Source: a virus
IMG/VR virus record: IMGVR_UViG_3300004151_000006
Location: 188,001 to 252,000 of that record
Direction: 5' to 3' (one strand)
DNA: 64,000 bases
Position numbers and translations under genes: made by a program. The notes under the pieces are model-generated. The model did not search any database. It saw only the letters and a list, made by a program, of their open reading frames with translations, and was not told the origin of the DNA. Below, piece by piece: positions 1,056 through 47,391 of the stretch. Within the stretch, counting starts at the first letter, position 1. Every line of letters begins with the position of its first letter.

Positions 1056-2669
1056 ATGGAATCATTCACGAGTCAGGATATCACAGATTTTGTTAAACTT
1101 ATTGTTGAAGCTGGTGGTGGGTATTATGTTGATGCTGATAATGTGATTCGAAGAGAGAAGACTAATGATATTTGGTGTATTGAAACAAATGATACTCCTC
1201 CGCGTAAAGTAAAATTGGTGATTTACAATCACAATCAAAAAGATTCAGATGTCATCATGGTCAATCCATTTATTGAAGGTTTGCAAACATCAAAAGAATT
1301 ACAGTGGTTTTATATCACTAAAAATCTTGTAGTGTCTGTGTATCTCAAATTGCTTTATATTAATATTATCAAAGAATGTTTGAAAGTCAAAGCTAATCAA
1401 GAACTTGATAGTAATATTGTGAAACTTATTTCACCCTATTTGGAAATGGTAGATGATAAGATGTATGCTGAAATTGAAACCATCACAGCTAAGATCCACA
1501 CATTCTGTGACATTTATTGGAATGTGAATAAGAAATCTAGTGAACTCAAAGTCAGTGTACTTTCTGAGAATTTTAGAAAATCTTTTGGTAAGAAGATCCG
1601 TCAGAAGACTTGGACATATCTCATTGAAGTGGCAAAAGCTATCTTTGGTACTGATGATCCATCTTCTGTTTATCGAATGAAATCAGATAATCATGGATGT
1701 GCTAAGTTTGAAGCATTCGCTCAAGTGTTCTTGATGGTATTTAAAGCTTATAGACCGTATTTTGTATTGACTCCTGATTTTAAAGCATTTGATTTTGAAG
1801 CTATGGAGAAGCATATCTCCATGATTCCACTTTATTATCATCGTGCTAAAAACCTTGTGTCTCCAGCTATTGTGGATCAAAAGAAAAAAGCTGTAACTCC
1901 AGCCAATCCTCCTTGGAAGCCAGTTCCAGTTATGGCTACCAATGTGGAATACATTCCACCGGCTGCACCAACAGTGGCGACTCCAGTCATTGGGTCTGCT
2001 CTCGGTACTCCGGTGACACCCACTCCAGTACCAGTACAACAAGCTACAATCCCGACAGCACAAGCCACCGTGCCGGCTATCCCTGTGGCAGTACAGCCGA
2101 TGGCTGCACCGACATATATGCAGCCACCTATCTCTGTGGGACATGCTGTCCAGGCTGCTATGATGGCACCCCAGATGATGAACAATATGTGGGGAGGGTA
2201 TCCCCAAAACCCTATGGTACAGCTGCCACCCATGCCCCAGGTGGCAGCTGTGGGCCAAATGGGTGCACCATACGGTAACATGCCCATGATGATGGGACAA
2301 CAGCAGTATCCCATGATGCAGCAGCCTGGAGCAATGCCCACTCTTGGTCAAGCTATGGGAACTGTACCACAGCAACCACAGATGTATCAGCAGCCCATGC
2401 CTGTAGGGTACCCCAATCAAATGGGATATCCCAATATGGGTATGCAGATGCAGCCAAATATGGGACTCATGGGTATGCCGCAACAGCAGCAAATGATGCC
2501 CATGCAGTATCAGGGTATGATGCCCCAACAGGGTATGTATCCTGGTCAATATCCTATGCAGCAGCAGATGATGCCTGCTAGTGATACCATGACGATGTCA
2601 TCAATTGGTGTGCCGATCCGTATGAGTAATAATCCTGATAATAATCGTGCAGCATATAAACGTGGATAA
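1056..2669 (+). CDS. Unknown protein with Pro/Met/Gln-rich C-terminal tail
   Basis: 537 residues; the ATG follows GGGGAGA at a good distance. Residues 1 to about 270 look globular and mostly helical. From about residue 280 the chain becomes low complexity, dominated by Pro, Met, Gln, Gly and Ala, with recurring PMMGQQQ and QQPMP-like runs, and it ends in a short ordered segment. Such tails are usually disordered and may mediate multivalent contacts or condensation; this is inference. Long antisense open frames across the tail are by-products of the biased composition. A strong hairpin terminator follows. It is probably co-transcribed with the upstream gene. No family is recognised. Confidence 0.75.
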   Translation: MESFTSQDITDFVKLIVEAGGGYYVDADNVIRREKTNDIWCIETNDTPPRKVKLVIYNHNQKDSDVIMVNPFIEGLQTSKELQWFYITKNLVVSVYLKLLYINIIKECLKVKANQELDSNIVKLISPYLEMVDDKMYAEIETITAKIHTFCDIYWNVNKKSSELKVSVLSENFRKSFGKKIRQKTWTYLIEVAKAIFGTDDPSSVYRMKSDNHGCAKFEAFAQVFLMVFKAYRPYFVLTPDFKAFDFEAMEKHISMIPLYYHRAKNLVSPAIVDQKKKAVTPANPPWKPVPVMATNVEYIPPAAPTVATPVIGSALGTPVTPTPVPVQQATIPTAQATVPAIPVAVQPMAAPTYMQPPISVGHAVQAAMMAPQMMNNMWGGYPQNPMVQLPPMPQVAAVGQMGAPYGNMPMMMGQQQYPMMQQPGAMPTLGQAMGTVPQQPQMYQQPMPVGYPNQMGYPNMGMQMQPNMGLMGMPQQQQMMPMQYQGMMPQQGMYPGQYPMQQQMMPASDTMTMSSIGVPIRMSNNPDNNRAAYKRG

Positions 2670-2692
2670 TAGATTGATTCATTGATTATTGT

Positions 2693-2729
2693 GCTACAGA
2701 TAGGGAGCCTGGGGCTCCCTATCTGTAGC
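2693..2729 (+). terminator. Hairpin terminator
   Basis: Two 17-base arms (GCTACAGATAGGGAGCC and its complement) enclose a 3-base loop just after the stop codon. A run of T occurs about 20 bases downstream. Confidence 0.8.
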
Positions 2730-2775
2730 TTAAAGAGTATGTACATCTATTTTTTTATAAGGAGAATAAGACATT

Positions 2776-4338
2776 ATGGGAACAGAAAGCGGTACTATCG
2801 GAATAAAGCCATTAAAGCTATCACTGTATTTTGGTACAGCTGCAGCAGATAAAGAATTTAATGGTAGAGAAATCAAAGTTTATATCACAGATTTTCTTCC
2901 TTATCTGAGTGGTAAACTTGAAGCCACTGAAATAACATCAAAAGTTGGTTTAGAAGACGATAGATCTGATGGTGGATCTGGTGAAGCTAAACAAACTAAT
3001 ACTATCACTGCCACATATTCAGATCTATTCACTAATAGAAAGTGGCCACCTGATATACGTAAAGGTGAACAAGTATTTGTTTTCAATGTGGGGGACAGTG
3101 ATACATATTATTGGTTTTCACTTGGTAGAGATGATAAATTAAGGAGATGTGAAAAATTACGTTGGGAAATCTCAGATGATGTGCAATTTATAAAAGAACT
3201 CACCAATGACAATACTTGGTATGTGGAGATGGTTACTTTACCTGATGAAGAAGGTAACCCAGTAAAACAATTTGTTATATCTACTGCTAAATCTGATGGT
3301 GAAGAATTTAGATATTTGATTAGGATTGATGCGATAGCTAATACACTTCAAATCAATGATGATGCCGACAACATGATACTTATGGAATCTAAAGAGAAAC
3401 GTATATTTTTACGTAACACTGATGGTTGTAGTCTTGAATTAAATAAGAAAAATGCTGCTTTAGTTGCTGTAGATGAACTTACTCTTAAAGCTGGAAAATT
3501 GATAGTCTTTGATGGTCCATTATTAGCAGATCAACAAGATACTAAAGATAAAGCAGCTATCAAAATAGCAGATAATATACATTTCACTGCAAATGAATCA
3601 TTTGTCATTACGACACCCATGTTAGGTATACGTGGTCCGAAAAATGAAGATACTGGTGAAGAAGAACAAGTCAATGTGACTATCTGTGGTACACTCCTCA
3701 CCAAGATGTTTGCAGCTATGTGTACGAGTATGGTTAAGTTTGATCCGAGTGCTTGTGGTGAGAATCCATGTGAAGAAATTGACAGTGAAGAAGCCAATAA
3801 TAATGTAGAATCTTTAGTCATGCGATCTATAGCAATGTTTGGTGCAGAAACTAATACCTTAAAGAGCAGTGGACCTGATGAAGGTAACAGACCTGAAGAA
3901 CTCAAAGAAGAATTTGCTGATGGATGGGGAGCTGATGAATTGAGAGATGATTATCATTTCCATGATAGTAATGTACCATCTACAAGTGCTTCTGCTTATA
4001 ATGGTGTTGAAATAGATATAAATACTGCAAGTTGTAGTGAAACTGGTAATGAAAAAAACAGTGTAGATACTGAATCTGGTAGACACTTGGCTGCATGGGA
4101 TCAAATCACTTCAGCTTTAGATAGAAATTCTGTAGCCATTCAAAATATTCGTGAAGCCATTGATAGACTAGCTGAAGTAGTATTGGATACGAGTGATGGT
4201 TCTAATCCAGAAAAGCAATCTTCATATATGGATATATTAAATGAGATTAAACAAAAGACTGAATATGCCGATAAACTCGGTGTAGAAGCGAGAGTTCTTG
4301 GTGTCAATAGTTTTGTAAAAAATGGTCACACTGGATAA
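2776..4338 (+). CDS. Baseplate hub/spike-like virion protein (candidate)
   Basis: 520 residues, start ATG preceded by AAGGAGAATAAGAC. Residues about 80-125 contain KGEQVFVFNVGDSDTYYW followed by a short turn and SLGRDD, a pattern resembling the OB-fold of phage baseplate hub or spike proteins. Residues about 170-290 form short alternating beta strands (ILMESKEKRIFLRN, SLELNKK, ELTLKAGKLIVF) of the type that builds beta-helical spikes. The C-terminal 200 residues are acidic and helical. The role, assembly of the membrane-piercing tail tip, is inferred from these patterns. Family assignment is tentative; a structure prediction would settle it. Confidence 0.5.
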   Translation: MGTESGTIGIKPLKLSLYFGTAAADKEFNGREIKVYITDFLPYLSGKLEATEITSKVGLEDDRSDGGSGEAKQTNTITATYSDLFTNRKWPPDIRKGEQVFVFNVGDSDTYYWFSLGRDDKLRRCEKLRWEISDDVQFIKELTNDNTWYVEMVTLPDEEGNPVKQFVISTAKSDGEEFRYLIRIDAIANTLQINDDADNMILMESKEKRIFLRNTDGCSLELNKKNAALVAVDELTLKAGKLIVFDGPLLADQQDTKDKAAIKIADNIHFTANESFVITTPMLGIRGPKNEDTGEEEQVNVTICGTLLTKMFAAMCTSMVKFDPSACGENPCEEIDSEEANNNVESLVMRSIAMFGAETNTLKSSGPDEGNRPEELKEEFADGWGADELRDDYHFHDSNVPSTSASAYNGVEIDINTASCSETGNEKNSVDTESGRHLAAWDQITSALDRNSVAIQNIREAIDRLAEVVLDTSDGSNPEKQSSYMDILNEIKQKTEYADKLGVEARVLGVNSFVKNGHTG

Positions 4339-31768: not shown

Positions 31769-31809
31769 TTTAATGTATCCATAACTAAAATTCCTGGAGG
31801 AATTTGTAT

Positions 31810-33312
31810 ATGCGGGCTATTTATAATGAAGATATGGATTTCTTTGATAAATCCATATCTGATGAACAGTGGTTTCTCAATAAAATTTTAGAAGGAAGAT
31901 TTGAATTATTAGAAAATGATACGGTGATCTATGATAAAGTAAGAAATACTCACAGAAAACCTGGAATAAAACATAATGGTGATACTCCATCCGTCCGGTA
32001 TAAAGTGTATGATATTAAAATTGCATCCCCACAACGTGGTAAGAGATCAATTTATCTTCATAAATTTGTATTTATATTTTATACAAAAAATATAGTACTA
32101 AAAAATACTTATTTAAAGTTTAAAGATGGGAATATTGGGAATACAAGTTTTGATAATTTGGAATTAGTATATAAACGAAAAGAAAATGATGATTTTTATA
32201 ATGATGAAATTTCTGCAAAGCAATGGTTTTATTCTGAAATTATAAAAGATCGTTTTGTATTATCTGAAAATGATACTAAAATATACGATAAGGTGCGAGA
32301 TAAATATGTCATACCTGGAGAATTTTCAATTTATTATAAAGACAATAAACGCAAAAAGAATTATCTTCGGTATTGCGTTGATTCTAGTATTCCGTATTAT
32401 AAAGAACGGTATATTCAATTGCATCAATTCGTTTGGATGTATTATCATAAACAATTGATACCTGAAGGACATGAGGTACACCATAAAGACGAAGATAAAC
32501 ACAATAATTGGCATGGAAATTTAGAACTGATATCTAATTTTGACCACATGCGACATCACAACAACAGTACAGAACGTCGACAAAAATTGACATCTCCTGA
32601 AAGTATAGCTCGACAAGTGAAACATAGACTATTATATCGAATGTTAAAACATAAGTATTGTTTTTCTGAAAAGAAGCTTTGTAGTAAGTGTAAAAGGTTA
32701 TTACCATTTATACGTTTTGATAAAGCAAACGAACAAAATTATATTTTAAAGTTAGAATCACTATGTAAAGAATGTAAATATATTTTATATGGGGACAATA
32801 AAAAGAACATAGACCGCTATCAATTCCCATCCGGGGTTTTATCAGATAAAATTGTTCTTGATATAAGATTTTTATTTAACATTGTAAATCAATCTTTCTA
32901 TCTTGTACAAAAGAAGTATCCTAACATTTCTAAACAAGATCTTAAAGATATCATTCTAGGTAATACATACACTCACATAGATACACTTCATGGTATCCAC
33001 GATACTCCTTATAGAAATGAAAAATATATCAATCAAATTGAACACTGTCATATACAACATGCATACAAACAGGCTGATTTCACTCCAGAAGAGTTATCCA
33101 AGATCTATGGAAGATCATTAAATGAAATTATCTATGTACTTACCGTAGGAAGGTATAGACCAGAAATAGAAATGGTAATGGATGTGCAGAAGTATGTGAA
33201 ACTATATAACGGGATATATACACAGCGTGAAGAATATATAATTGATTTCAATAAACTCAAGGAACGTGATATTAGTATCCCCACCAATGTGGTAGCTGGT
33301 GAATTAGTTTAA
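31810..33312 (+). CDS. HNH homing endonuclease-like protein with duplicated domain
   Basis: 500 residues; CTGGAGGAATTTGTAT before ATG 31810. Two related units lie in tandem. The first (DKSISDEQWFLNKILEGRFE...YDKVR) lacks the HNH histidines. The second (NDEISAKQWFYSEIIKDRFV...YDKVR) ends in EGHEVHHKDEDKHNNWHGNL and ISNFDHMRHHNN, a full HNH nuclease signature. A Cys4 zinc-finger-like pair (CSKCKRLL...CKECKYIL) follows, with a 150-residue C-terminal region that may bind DNA. Free-standing HNH enzymes in phages are mobile and nick or cut genes lacking them. Its location right after the intein-containing nrdD, and the intron in the beta-subunit gene, make a homing role plausible. The same N-terminal unit starts the gene at 63868. 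Confidence 0.83.
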   Translation: MRAIYNEDMDFFDKSISDEQWFLNKILEGRFELLENDTVIYDKVRNTHRKPGIKHNGDTPSVRYKVYDIKIASPQRGKRSIYLHKFVFIFYTKNIVLKNTYLKFKDGNIGNTSFDNLELVYKRKENDDFYNDEISAKQWFYSEIIKDRFVLSENDTKIYDKVRDKYVIPGEFSIYYKDNKRKKNYLRYCVDSSIPYYKERYIQLHQFVWMYYHKQLIPEGHEVHHKDEDKHNNWHGNLELISNFDHMRHHNNSTERRQKLTSPESIARQVKHRLLYRMLKHKYCFSEKKLCSKCKRLLPFIRFDKANEQNYILKLESLCKECKYILYGDNKKNIDRYQFPSGVLSDKIVLDIRFLFNIVNQSFYLVQKKYPNISKQDLKDIILGNTYTHIDTLHGIHDTPYRNEKYINQIEHCHIQHAYKQADFTPEELSKIYGRSLNEIIYVLTVGRYRPEIEMVMDVQKYVKLYNGIYTQREEYIIDFNKLKERDISIPTNVVAGELV

Positions 33313-41896: not shown

Positions 41897-44800
41897 ATGT
41901 TGACTATGCAGGACTTTTTCTTTGAATGTGATGATATTGAAACAAATATCATCTCCAATGAAATGTTTAACTATCCAAGATTTAAACTTAATTATCATAA
42001 CTGGAAGTATTCCTTCTTGACTAATAATTTTTTTGACATTGGTACAATGCAATTGCCATGGGATGCTACGTATCATACTGCAGATAATTGGTTTGGTGGC
42101 GTACAACAGGACTATCCAAATATAGTCAATGATCCTTTTATCTCTAACGAAATGTATTATAAATGGATCTATCATCAAACTATATTTCAATTAAATGGTC
42201 CTATTCAATATGATACTAAATACAACTATTTGACTAGTGGGTTGTCTACTATCTTAAATGCATTTCGATCACAATATAAAGCACAGTTTCGATATCTTCA
42301 AAAATTAGAAGACACTCCAAGAAAGAAAGAATCTCTCACTATCATTAATTACAATCCTTTATTTAGATGTTACACATTTGGTGCATTGCAATATTTTAAG
42401 AAAGTAAATTTGATATTATCTACTATGTTTAATACAGTAGCTCACATGATTGATATGTATCCAGATAAACATCAATATATCTTGATCCCATGGAATAATG
42501 AAATCTATACTCAAGATCAATTTACACGTACAAAGAAAAAGATCGATATCTCTTCATTGAGAAATCCCAATAGTTTTCATTTTATTTTTATGGTCTATTT
42601 GATGAATTTCATTGATCCTAATACTGATCTTGGACTCTTTAATCAATATCCAGAAAAGTACTGGAAAGAAACTAATTTAGTATTTCGAAATGGTAATAAA
42701 GCCACTATCTTTAATTTAGAAGATCTCAAGACTCTTAATGATAAAAATAGAGCCTATCTCAAGGTAGTATCGCATCTCAATATCTTATCTACCATAGGGA
42801 GCAGTACTATAGTACTGGATACCTCTGAAGTAGATGGTATCTCTGGACCAACAGATCGTATCCCAGTGATCACTGAGACTAAATGTACTATCTCATTACC
42901 TGATATCACTACAGTACCTTTAGATAAGACTAATCCTGAAGTCACTGATAAATCAGAGAGTGTCTCTAAAGATCCAGTACCTATCGTAGATACTACACAG
43001 AGTATCATGCCTAGCAGTATCATTGGTACAACCAAATCAGTGATCCAAAAGACTTTTATCCCTATGGTAAAATCCACAGTATCTATTATGCCTAAAGTGA
43101 TCTCTAAATCAGATACACCAAATCAAATATTAGAAGACACTAAACCTGTGATGAGAAATCTCATTCCACAATTAGCTTCTAATATCACCCAGATAGAATC
43201 AGAGACTGATCCCAATGTAATCAAACAGCGTAGTAAAGAATATTTAGAAGACATTGATGCACAAGCTGTAACATATATTGATAATAGAGAAGATCTCACC
43301 CCAAAACAAAAAGAAAGACTCAAGACTGTAGCAAAGAAATATAAACAAGTCACTATTGGTGAAGAGACTCTTCAAGATATCATCCTTAAAAACAATGATG
43401 TACTCATTGATGAAGATCCACCACAGTCTGTGATAGATACTTTACCTGATAAGACTATGGCTAAATCAAAAGCATTTCATTTTGATAAAGCTTATATCCA
43501 TAAAACTATGAAAAAAGACTTAGCCAGCATTGCTGTAAACTTTAATAAACTTGGTATGTTTTTGACAGATATTAAGACTTCACAGACTATTAATGAATTG
43601 ACACAATCTGAAGAATACACTTTTAAGTTTGAAGATGTCCAAGGTAAATCACATACTGTCAAATTCAGCGTGCCTATCATTGATAGTAATGGATATTGTT
43701 ATATCAACGGTGTCAAAAAGTATTTGAAGAAACAAATGATCAATATCCCAATTTGTAAGATAGGTGAGAATAAGGTTTCTATGGTCTCCAATCAGAATAA
43801 AGTATTGATCTTGCGTAATGAAACTAAAGCTCATAGTTTTGATACACAGATAGATAAAATAGTAGAACTTGGAAAATCAGTACTTAATATAATCTATGGT
43901 ACACTGGATCTCAATCTTTCTTTAGCTTATGAATATGTCTCCATTGCACAAAAATATAATACCATTACTATTAAATCACAAGATGGTAAATCACATACTT
44001 TATGTTTTGATTATTATAATAGATTTAAAGATATTGCTGATGTAGCACTACATTCTAAATTAGATGCATTGGAGAAACAATATGGTACACTCTTTGGTAA
44101 AGATGGTCATACTGGATATTATTTTATTGATACTAATAACTTAGTCAGTTTGATTACATTGGATAGAAAAGATATCACACCTTCAGATGTGGTATCTATT
44201 GTAGATATCTTTAAGACTACATATCCTAAAGAGTTAGCTAGTAAGATAGGTTTCATCACAGAATGGATAGATATTAACTTAGTCTCTAAACCTTTACCTG
44301 TTGGATTTATCTTAGCATACCGATATGGTCTAGTCAACATGATGGATCACCTTGGGGTGAAATATAAGCTCTTAGCTAAACGTGGTAATAGTGTGTTAGA
44401 AGAGAGTGAATTCTCAGGTGAGAATGTTATTTCTGCTACTGAGTCTTTTGATACTTTGACTATGGATAAAGTGATCAATATTGATACTCGTAGGAAATGG
44501 AAGATCGATGATGTCAAACATCTTGAACTTTTAGAAAAGTACAATATATCTAAAACTGAATGTATCATCAGTGGTAGTGCTGCTATGATAGCACATCGAT
44601 ATCCGAACTGTATCAACAATGATCTTGATATTGTGGTGACTGATAGAGTATATGCTAAACTTAAAAAGGATACTACAAATTTTTCAGTACATAAAGCACG
44701 TGATGGTATTGGTACTGATATAAAATTGGTCAGCAAAGATGAGAAACTTGAGATCACTAAATATTTCCATGCTTTATCTGAAGAATATACTTTTGATGTG

Positions 44801-45870
44801 GTGAAAAAAGAAAGTGTGAATGTCATTGATGAATATATGTTCACTGATTTGGATTTCTTATTTAAAATGTATACCAAACTCAATAGACCTAAAGATCAAG
44901 ATAAGATCAAATGGTTGACGGAACATCAAGGTAAGACAGTAGCTGCCAATGAATCCCTGATATCACATGTGACTGATAAAATCATCTATATTGAAGATGA
45001 AGCACATCATTTGGTGAATGCTAATGAAGCACTCACTGTAGATAAGTACACTTACACCCCTGGGGATATAGTCATCAAATTCAAAGATTGTAATTTAGTC
45101 TTCAATAGGTATCCCATGTATCAATCTTTGATCATGTGTGGGCTCGATCATTTCAATACCCAAGCATATACCTTTGATGAATTTAATATGAAAGATGTAT
45201 ATTACTCACTCATGGAAGATAGGGGTATCAAATCTAACTACCTTAAAGCTGTTAATAGTTTCTTTGATCTCTTTATGGACCCTATCACCAAAGATGTACT
45301 TCAGCAGATGGGTGAACCAACTAATGTACAAGATCTCCTGATCAGAGCCAGTGTATTACTTACTACCAAAGATCATAAAGAGGCTTCATCTATAGCCAAC
45401 CACCGTATCCGTAGCTATGAACAATTCAATGCTATCATCTATAATGAAATGGCTAGAGCCTATGCAGCCTATCAAGTGGGTAGAGGTAAAGGTAATACTT
45501 TCAGTGTGAATCCCAATGCTGTATTCCAACGTATCATCCAGAACCCATCATTCACTATCGTAGAAGATATCAATCCTATCCAGGAATTAAAAGAAAGAGC
45601 TGGATTTACTTTTGCTGGTGTGGGTGGTCGTACATCTGAATCTTTTGTAGTGGATGATAGACGGTATCCTGAAGATGGTATTGGTATCATCTCTGAATCT
45701 ACAGTCGATAATGCTAAGGTCTCCATGAATGCTTATCTCACTGTTGATCCAACTATAGCTAATACTCGTGGTATCATTGATATTGAAGCTTTAAATAAAT
45801 TAAGTTCTAGTAATGTACTCAGTGTCACTGCACTTAATGCACCATGTGCAATGCATGATGATGGAGATGT
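41897..45870 (+). CDS. RNA polymerase beta subunit, exon 1 (with embedded nucleotidyltransferase-like domain)
   Basis: TAAGGAGATTTATAT before the ATG; about 1325 residues to the proposed splice site, while unspliced reading continues to a stop at 45916. Residues about 560-640 include the beta N-terminal core (GYCYINGVKKYLKKQMINI, like GxFIINGxERVIVxQ). Residues about 1235-1295 (GFTFAGVGG...DDRRYPEDGIGIISE) match the bacterial fork-loop segment GFEVRDVH...IETPEGPNIGLI. HDD at 1320-1322 starts the next conserved motif. Residues about 882-1010 are foreign to beta: ISGSAAMIAHRY...NDLDIVVT, TDIKLVS and a final FLFKMYTKLNRPKDQDKI helix form a nucleotidyltransferase-like domain. Residues 300-450 are low complexity. 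It is one of two beta subunits in the window; here the halves are fused, unlike phiKZ. Confidence 0.85.
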
Positions 45871-46244
45871 TGAATACACAGAAGATTCAGCATTATCTCT
45901 CTGTCCCACCAAATAGTGATATTTGGATGGTATCTCCCCTAATTGCTGGGATACCCTTAGAGCCATTCTACCTAAGCGGAGTGTGAAAACACACACGTGT
46001 CGAAAGACAGGTTGGAAAAGTGAATGGATTGGGTAATCAGCAGCGAAGTCCCTAAAGACACTATGTCCATGGGATGTGTTCAACGACTGACCGCTTATCA
46101 CGGTGTACACACTGAGTGGTGTGGAAATGGGGAGCACCCCAAGTGGGTGAAGGTATAGTCTCATCTGCATTGAAAGATGCAGCAGTACAGTATATTTATA
46201 CTGTACGGGATTGTAGGTAACGCTACAGTCCGAAGACACATGAG
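45871..46244 (+). ncRNA. Group I intron in the RNA polymerase beta gene
   Basis: The conserved group I core is readable: P element AATTGCTGGGA at 45941, Q AATCAGCAGCGAAG at 46035, R GTTCAACGACTGAC at 46078 and S AAGGTATAGTC at 46150. P4 pairs GCTG with CAGC and P7 pairs GACT with AGTC. Exon bases 45863-45871 (GGAGATGTT) pair with the guide GGTATCTCC at 45929-45937, ending in U-G pairs, which sets the 5' site at 45870 or 45871. A terminal G at 46244 (or 46242) keeps the exons in frame. CAAA at the start of exon 2 can pair with TTTG upstream of the guide (P10). About 374 bases long, with no internal reading frame, so it should self-splice but needs an endonuclease from elsewhere for mobility. 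Confidence 0.9.
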
Positions 46245-47391
46245 CAAACGCATAAGTTTTATATCTACCCAGATGAGTCATGTGGTGGCTACTAAAGACC
46301 TTGATCTTTGTAGAGTCCGTACTGGATATGAAAATATGATAGGACAACAATGTAGTAGTACATATGTTGGTATAGCAAAACAAGATGGTGTAATCACACA
46401 AGTAGATAGAGCTAATAATATCCTTAGAGTGGATTATAAAGATGGAACAGCTGATGTGTATAGTTTTGGTGAACAATACACCAATATCTCTGGTATGTAT
46501 ATTACACAACATCTCATTTGTGTCGTAGACCAGGGTGATAAAGTAAAGAAAGGTGATATACTCTGTTTCAATGATCAATATTTTAAAATGGATAAATATA
46601 CTAAACAATTAAATGCTGGACATGGTGTGTTAGCTAAAGTGGTACTTATGGAGACCGATAATACACTTGAAGACAGTAATGCTATCACTAAACAGTTTGG
46701 TAAAAGACTTACCATCACACCCACACATACTCGAGATATTGTATTGACTAAAAATAGTGTGATACATCAATATCTTACAATAGGTACACATGTAAAGAAT
46801 ACTGATACTATATTGGTGTTTGAAGATGAAGATCTTGGCGATATGGGATCACTCACTGGTGGGGATATCTCAACTTTAGAGATGTTAAAGACACTTAATA
46901 AAAATATGCCTAAAGCTAAACATAGTGGTGAAATAGTCAAGATAGAGGCTTTTTATGCCTGTCCTATATCTGAGATGGGTGAATCTGTAGCTAAACTTGT
47001 CACTGAATGTAATAAATCTAAATTAACTAAATATAAGTTCTCTCGTGGTACCAATATGGAATATGATTATATTCCGCCCACAGTACTTCCTGAAAGGACT
47101 AAATATAAAGGTAATGAATTTGATAAGGATACGGTAGTCATTCAGTTTTATATCAAAGAGGATATAGCACATGGTGTTGGTGATAAAGCTGTACTTGGAA
47201 ATCAATTAAAAAGTACCTCTAATGAAGTATTAGAAGAACCTATTCTTTCTGAATCTGGTATAGAGATAGATGTCGTATTTGGTACTGCTAGTGTAGCAAA
47301 TCGTGTTGTACTTGGATGCTTTTTATCTGGTAGTGCATCTAGAGTATTGGAAGAATTACAATATCAAGCTGTAGATATGTATTTTAATTAA
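46245..47391 (+). CDS. RNA polymerase beta subunit, exon 2 (C-terminal part)
   Basis: Spliced exon of about 382 residues, giving a beta subunit of about 1706 residues. It opens with KRISFISTQMSHVV, equivalent to NRALMGANMQRQAV that follows HDD in bacterial beta, so intron removal restores the motif. TLEDSNAITKQFG corresponds to NFEDSILxSE. HGVGDKAVLGNQLKST, then SGIEIDVVFGTASVANRVV, correspond to the catalytic GDKxxxRHGNKG and PVDIVLNPLGVPSRMN segments, with the active-site Lys in GDK retained. An ATG at 46240 lies in the intron and need not be used. Two bacterial-type beta C-termini (this one and 5346-7592) imply two distinct phage polymerases, as known for phiKZ virion and non-virion enzymes. 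Confidence 0.87.

Follow-up and report, generated by a model that had tools for sequence, protein, structure and literature searches.

Two neighbouring reading frames in the DNA analysed here (the window, 64,000 nucleotides, bases 188,001-252,000 of a 286,688-base virus record) look like separate genes, and the original prediction took them to be one RNA polymerase (RNAP) beta gene, split at the HDD..R motif by a group I intron at 45871-46244. This raises the questions of whether the intron is real, where exactly the two exons would be joined, and whether the element is mobile.

That the two frames belong together can be seen from the protein matches. The frame from 41897 onward and the one that runs up to 47391 match phrog_3148 at the consecutive positions 775-1050 and 1052-1420, which makes them parts of one RNAP beta subunit, with the split in the HDD..R motif as predicted. 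The orthologues, at ca 30-33% protein identity, are the virion RNAP (vRNAP) beta subunits of the phiKZ-like phages (phiKZ gp178, PhiPA3 gp211/209, EL gp186/187). In comparisons with solved structures, the DDaKR of the profile aligns with the cellular HDDANR, and the insertion thus lies directly behind the second conserved Asp, as in PhiPA3, where the intron has been placed after the Asp equivalent to E. coli RpoB D675 (PMC11620839). A separate observation concerns residues ca 829-1056 of the protein (window ca 44381-45064), a stretch of ca 220 residues that is missing in relatives such as L113. It bears the nucleotidyltransferase-like motif GSAAM...NDLDIVVTD, with a match to phrog_12854 (E=4e-6) and one to DUF7277 below the cut-off.

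The Rfam covariance search, which had been proposed as a check, supports the group I assignment. The RF00028 match at 45862-46182 on the plus strand covers the full model (1-253) with 64.5 bits, against a gathering threshold of 50, and E=4.5e-14. It is the only RF00028 match in the whole record. The P, Q, R and S core elements named originally are all present, together with P3-P9 and P9.1/P9.2. The features of the locus, all on the plus strand, are the following.

41897-45862, plus strand: 5′ exon of the virion RNAP beta gene, 1322 codons, ending CAT GAT GAT (open reading frame and phrog_3148; end set by homologous junctions)
45863-46242, plus strand: group I intron, 380 nt, ORF-less, IA-like with P7.1/P7.2 present (RF00028, same-site homologues, covariation)
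45860-45867, plus strand: 5′ strand of P1, with U45862 as the splice-site U in the U-G wobble (minimum-free-energy fold; the relatives also end in GAU^)
45868-45892, plus strand: L1 stem-loop (UGUUGAAU/AUUCAGCA), where PhiPA3-type introns hold the endonuclease gene (fold; comparison with L007)
45898-45905, plus strand: 3′ strand of P1, the internal guide sequence (IGS) UCUCUGUC, with G45903 opposite U45862 (spacing of GUC to the P element)
45909-45926, plus strand: P2 hairpin (two-sided changes in 7/7 pairs)
45934-45939, plus strand: 5′ strand of P3, partner 46129-46134 (two-sided changes in 6/6 pairs)
45944-46042, plus strand: P4-P5-P5a domain with the P and Q elements (Rfam, covariation)
46049-46074, plus strand: P6a/P6b (covariation)
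46085-46088, plus strand: 5′ strand of P7, R element GUUCAACGACU, partner 46157-46160 in the S element (invariant in 9 introns)
46090-46123, plus strand: P7.1 and P7.2 hairpins (5/5 pairs of P7.2 covary)
46129-46149, plus strand: 3′ strand of P3, and P8 (covariation)
46165-46231, plus strand: P9, P9.1 and P9.2 hairpins (covariation; fold of the 3′ domain, z = -4.88)
46242, plus strand: terminal intron G, omega G (alignment of 3′ ends)
46243-47391, plus strand: 3′ exon of the virion RNAP beta gene, AGC AAA CGC, read S-K-R-I-S-F (phrog_3148 positions 1052-1420; spliced frame open)

The ends of the intron, 45863-46242, were placed by homology, P1 pairing and reading frame. From the homologous junctions, the 5′ boundary is GAT(45860-45862)^GGAGATG and the 3′ boundary GAAGACACATG(46242)^AGC AAA CGC. 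The join GAT|AGC AAA CGC gives HDD-S-KR, in phase 0 after the second Asp, and the beta frame stays open across it for 1704 aa. The same DD^xKR insertion pattern is found in PhiPA3, 201phi2-1, 2050HW, HPP-Temi, Kodama, EL and the contigs L073, L098, L099 and L100. For EL the junctions read GAC GAT^TGAG...ACG^GTC AAA CGA, and the intronless relative GXNNE2 has GAC GAT|GTG AAG CGA. In the lowest-energy fold of 45851-45925, GAUGGAGA (45860-45867) pairs with UCUCUGUC (45898-45905), so that the exon-end U45862 forms a wobble with IGS G45903, and the last intron base is G46242. A clear P10 was not found for this intron.

This placement differs at both ends from the original one, in which the 5′ end lies 8 nt and the 3′ end 2 nt too far downstream, and the protein consequently has two residues too many. 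Splicing after U45870 and G46244, which would yield HDDGDVKR, does have some points in its favor, since a U-G pair also occurs in the 9-bp pairing AUGUUGAAU/AUUCAGCAU, involving U45870, and the reading frame is kept across the join. However, DD (or ED) is separated from KR (or a variant, e.g. RR) by exactly one residue in 98/98 distinct uninterrupted relatives, six of which have the motif DDSKR, and the two added residues would break this constant length. The IGS G would then be G45890, at a distance of ca 50 nt from the P element downstream, while in those same-site introns that could be parsed the GUC of the IGS lies mostly 36-37 nt upstream of it, and 27 nt in 2050HW. The 5′ site would also be displaced by 8 nt from the shared insertion point, and it is G46242 that aligns with the intron ends of the relatives. 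We therefore regard this junction as very unlikely, and neither the join HDDGDV|KRISF nor the option of an extra Ser with almost the same 5′ site is supported. G46244 as the last base is out of frame with a 5′ site at GAU45862. The pairing of AUGU^UGAAU with AUUCAGCAU, which agrees with the original junction, is itself real; we rejected this register of P1 as the splice-site helix and retained it as a stem in L1. For the junction 45862/46243 the predicted cDNA sequence is GCATGATGATAGCAAACGC, also given as GATGATAGCAAACGC, and for the original one it is GATGGAGATGTCAAACGC.

We now consider whether the fold is maintained in the relatives. Nine same-site introns were aligned, and 14 helices, including the P3/P7 pseudoknot, were modelled with 80 pairs; EL and Kodama were left out of this count, as both have long insertions and EL was misaligned. 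In the alignment, 87.8% of the cells are paired and 52/80 pairs show two-sided changes. The covariation score is 0.445, compared to 0.192 +/- 0.015 in shuffled alignments, none of which (0/500) reaches it. When the partner is slid by 1-3 columns only 36-44% of the cells are paired. As the model was derived from the window's intron, it has an advantage over this control, but it is the other rows that supply the two-sided changes. P2, P3, P6a and P7.2 covary fully and P7 is invariant. A chance origin of the pairing is thereby excluded, and a pseudoknotted P3/P7 core with P4-P6 and P8 is strongly supported by the covariation. Group IA introns are marked by P7.1 and P7.2, and the presence of both here suggests an IA-like subgroup.

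The intact fold also bears on the scenario of a dead, relic intron and a beta subunit made as two polypeptides, from 41897-45916 and from a frame that begins at 46177 or 46240. Stop and start codons are in frame for both halves, and split subunits are a normal feature of jumbo-phage RNAPs (PMC7598289). Against this, no core helix is disrupted, the intron retains the invariant bases of P7 and P4, and the break would fall inside the DD-x-KR motif. Moreover, in 201phi2-1 the gene that holds the same intron is recorded as a single joined CDS, identified by mass spectrometry. This scenario is thus extremely unlikely. The group I intron in the beta gene is, as far as can be read from sequence, genuine, with splicing as the expected outcome, and we hold with high confidence that 45863-46242 is a self-splicing, IA-like intron in phase 0 after the second Asp of H-D-D-x-K-R, an endonuclease-free member of a mobile set of same-site introns.

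According to the mechanism that we propose, the transcript would fold into P3-P9, and exogenous guanosine would attack after GAU45862, held by the IGS UCUCU-GUC via the U-G wobble. The freed 5′ exon would then join A46243 with release of the intron at G46242, and the ligated mRNA would code for a single beta subunit that reads HDDSKR. The predicted beta subunit of this phage is hereby corrected, with an exact junction supplied.

The closest comparison among known systems is PhiPA3 gp211-gp210-gp209 (PMC11620839), which shares the orthologous vRNAP beta gene, the identical point after the DD pair, a core that is ca 65% identical, and the architecture of the 3′ end. Unlike the window's intron of 380 nt, it spans 1352 nt, and its L1 encodes the HNH nicking endonuclease gp210. 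This enzyme targets phiKZ gp178 and has been described as a DNA-cutting enzyme deployed against rival phages (Birkholz et al. 2024, PMC11620839). The intron of 201phi2-1 gp273/274 (NC_010821, where the annotation has the gene interrupted by a mobile element) is at the same site, is ORF-less (336 nt) and has a core ca 67% identical to that in the window; it lacks the P5a extension, and the exon proteins are ca 31% identical. Polymerase genes are indeed recurrent targets, as was noted originally, but the comparison made there with phiKZ gp71-73 missed these identical-position introns in PhiPA3 (PMC11620839) and 201phi2-1. Group I introns with cores related at ca 55-60% are also present in LP14, nepoznato and PS119XW/PA7 (an RNAP locus elsewhere in the genome), in other genes and at other insertion sites. 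The kind of element and its insertion site are hence already known, and the window's copy is a further ORF-less case. Beyond PMC11620839, PMC12908238, PMC11878797 and PMC7598289, the present analysis contributes a broad survey of occupancy at the site, evidence that introns were gained and lost there in a scattered manner, and a corrected junction for this phage.

The survey comprised two alignment-based scans of IMG/VR, pattern scans and phage records. Alignment profiles were needed because searches for close relatives in viral contigs with the 3′ exon protein found none and a megablast of the locus gave no match. Since only the best 80 loci per scan were kept, the counts are lower bounds and the frequencies biased. 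An intron at exactly the DD site occurs in at least about 20 distinct phages, and roughly eight of these introns are ORF-less (336-415 nt), namely those of the window, L073, L099, L145, L168, EL (unannotated there), 201phi2-1 and HPP-Temi. Introns of 1305-1682 nt, with an L1 insert of endonuclease size, are found in PhiPA3, 2050HW, Kodama, L098, L100, L116, L146, L152, L160, L166 and L179, plus L147. The inserts of PhiPA3, 2050HW, L098 and L100 match HNH/NUMOD-type families, that of Kodama matches NUMOD1 with an HNH annotation, and the others were classed by length. In a comparison with 50,697 phage records, the window's intron matches best, at the DNA level, the introns at this site in HPP-Temi, PhiPA3 and 201phi2-1 (70-78% over 53-69% of its length), despite exon proteins that are only ca 30-33% identical.

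Nearest to the window's intron is the ORF-less one (357 nt) at the same site in L099 (IMG/VR contig 3300035034_000875), with 69% identity and 95/84 support. It sits in a distant exon, 30% identical in the N-terminal part, and this suggests lateral movement. No intron is present at the DD site in the nearest exon relatives of the window, L114, L117 and L113. On a tree of 126 beta proteins, approximate because it was built by a quick method and has many open forks, the 18 intron rows require 18 changes, the maximum for 18 rows. The label used on this tree demanded GAT before the gap, so that the count of 18/18 GAT holds by construction and is not evidence. Near-identical pairs with and without the intron are EL/GXNNE2, L160/L041 and HPP-Temi/phiHQ. 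In the last two, the exon bases beside the intron differ synonymously (GTAGATGAT vs GTCGACGAT, and GATGAT vs GATGAC), as would be expected from co-conversion during homing. Among 30 introns there are seven label changes, and a single clade for the 19 same-site introns is not rejected (p-AU 0.101); as these are not a proven single clade, the DD site may have received introns on more than one occasion. We place the window's intron in a mobile set that repeatedly occupies the DD site in phiKZ-like phages.

As for present mobility, the intron has no endonuclease frame, in agreement with the original prediction; the longest sense frame in it is 44 codons. On the antisense strand, a frame of 126 codons, which belongs to a 291-codon ORF over the locus, matches no Pfam family. 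In the whole virus record, neither a homologue of PhiPA3 gp210 nor a GIY-YIG gene was detected. The intron has either lost an HNH endonuclease or never carried one, and would now be immobile or reliant on an endonuclease in trans. The latter option draws on three free-standing HNH_3 genes in the record (window 31804-33312, G000:C1 ca 110757 and G000:C1 252144-252641) and on the relatives that encode HNH at the L1 position. However, none of the genes in the record is a detectable gp210 homologue, and at least two of the HNH genes adjoin an NrdD-like ORF or the RNAP beta′ gene, for which cutting of those loci is the simpler explanation. One follows the NrdD-like ORF (judged by eye) and one adjoins the RNAP gene with the DADVDGD motif. 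Mobility in trans at present therefore appears improbable, and we infer an intron that homed in the past and is now immobile.

It is tempting to ask why ORF-less copies persist. As an occupied site would escape cutting, they might shield the phage from the DD-site endonucleases of rivals, a passive immunity kept after endonuclease loss; we offer this tentatively and regard it as rather doubtful. If true, vRNAP beta would be contested at its DD site, with alleles that attack, are immune or are susceptible. Introns fill the target site of the 'weapon' endonuclease of PhiPA3 in very diverse jumbo phages, whose exon proteins are ca 30% identical, and endonuclease-bearing, endonuclease-free and empty alleles coexist, even between near-identical phages. 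A single case study thereby becomes a population-level system for testing gain, loss and protection.

Some further observations were made at or near the site. The Serratia phages 2050HW (L011) and Kodama (L015) have equal exon identity values to the window protein and different endonucleases (328 aa vs 413 aa), which suggests replacement of the intron or the endonuclease. In L147 (IMGVR_UViG_3300036546_000129, 2470-4040) two group I introns, both matching Rfam, stand in tandem in vRNAP beta, one at DD^ with the long insert and the second 11 nt downstream, with the micro-exon CCAAAACGAGT (P-K-R-V) between them. L155, with an Rfam match, likewise has its insertion after P-K-R-V (GT^), and it is one of seven phages (L013, L141, L155, L156, L157, L177 and L182) in which an insertion lies a few codons past the DD site and DD-x-KR is intact. 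The only DD interruption seen beside GAC is the intron of Vibrio phage BONAISHI (L012, 2308-2822), inserted 3 nt downstream of the common site, apparently after GGT (HDDG^KR). Finally, the vRNAP gene clusters of Vibrio phage Yong MS32 (L002, 1065-1471 and 4221-4581) and phage EL (L004, 1784-2156) contain more group I introns, located upstream of RNAP genes or between them.
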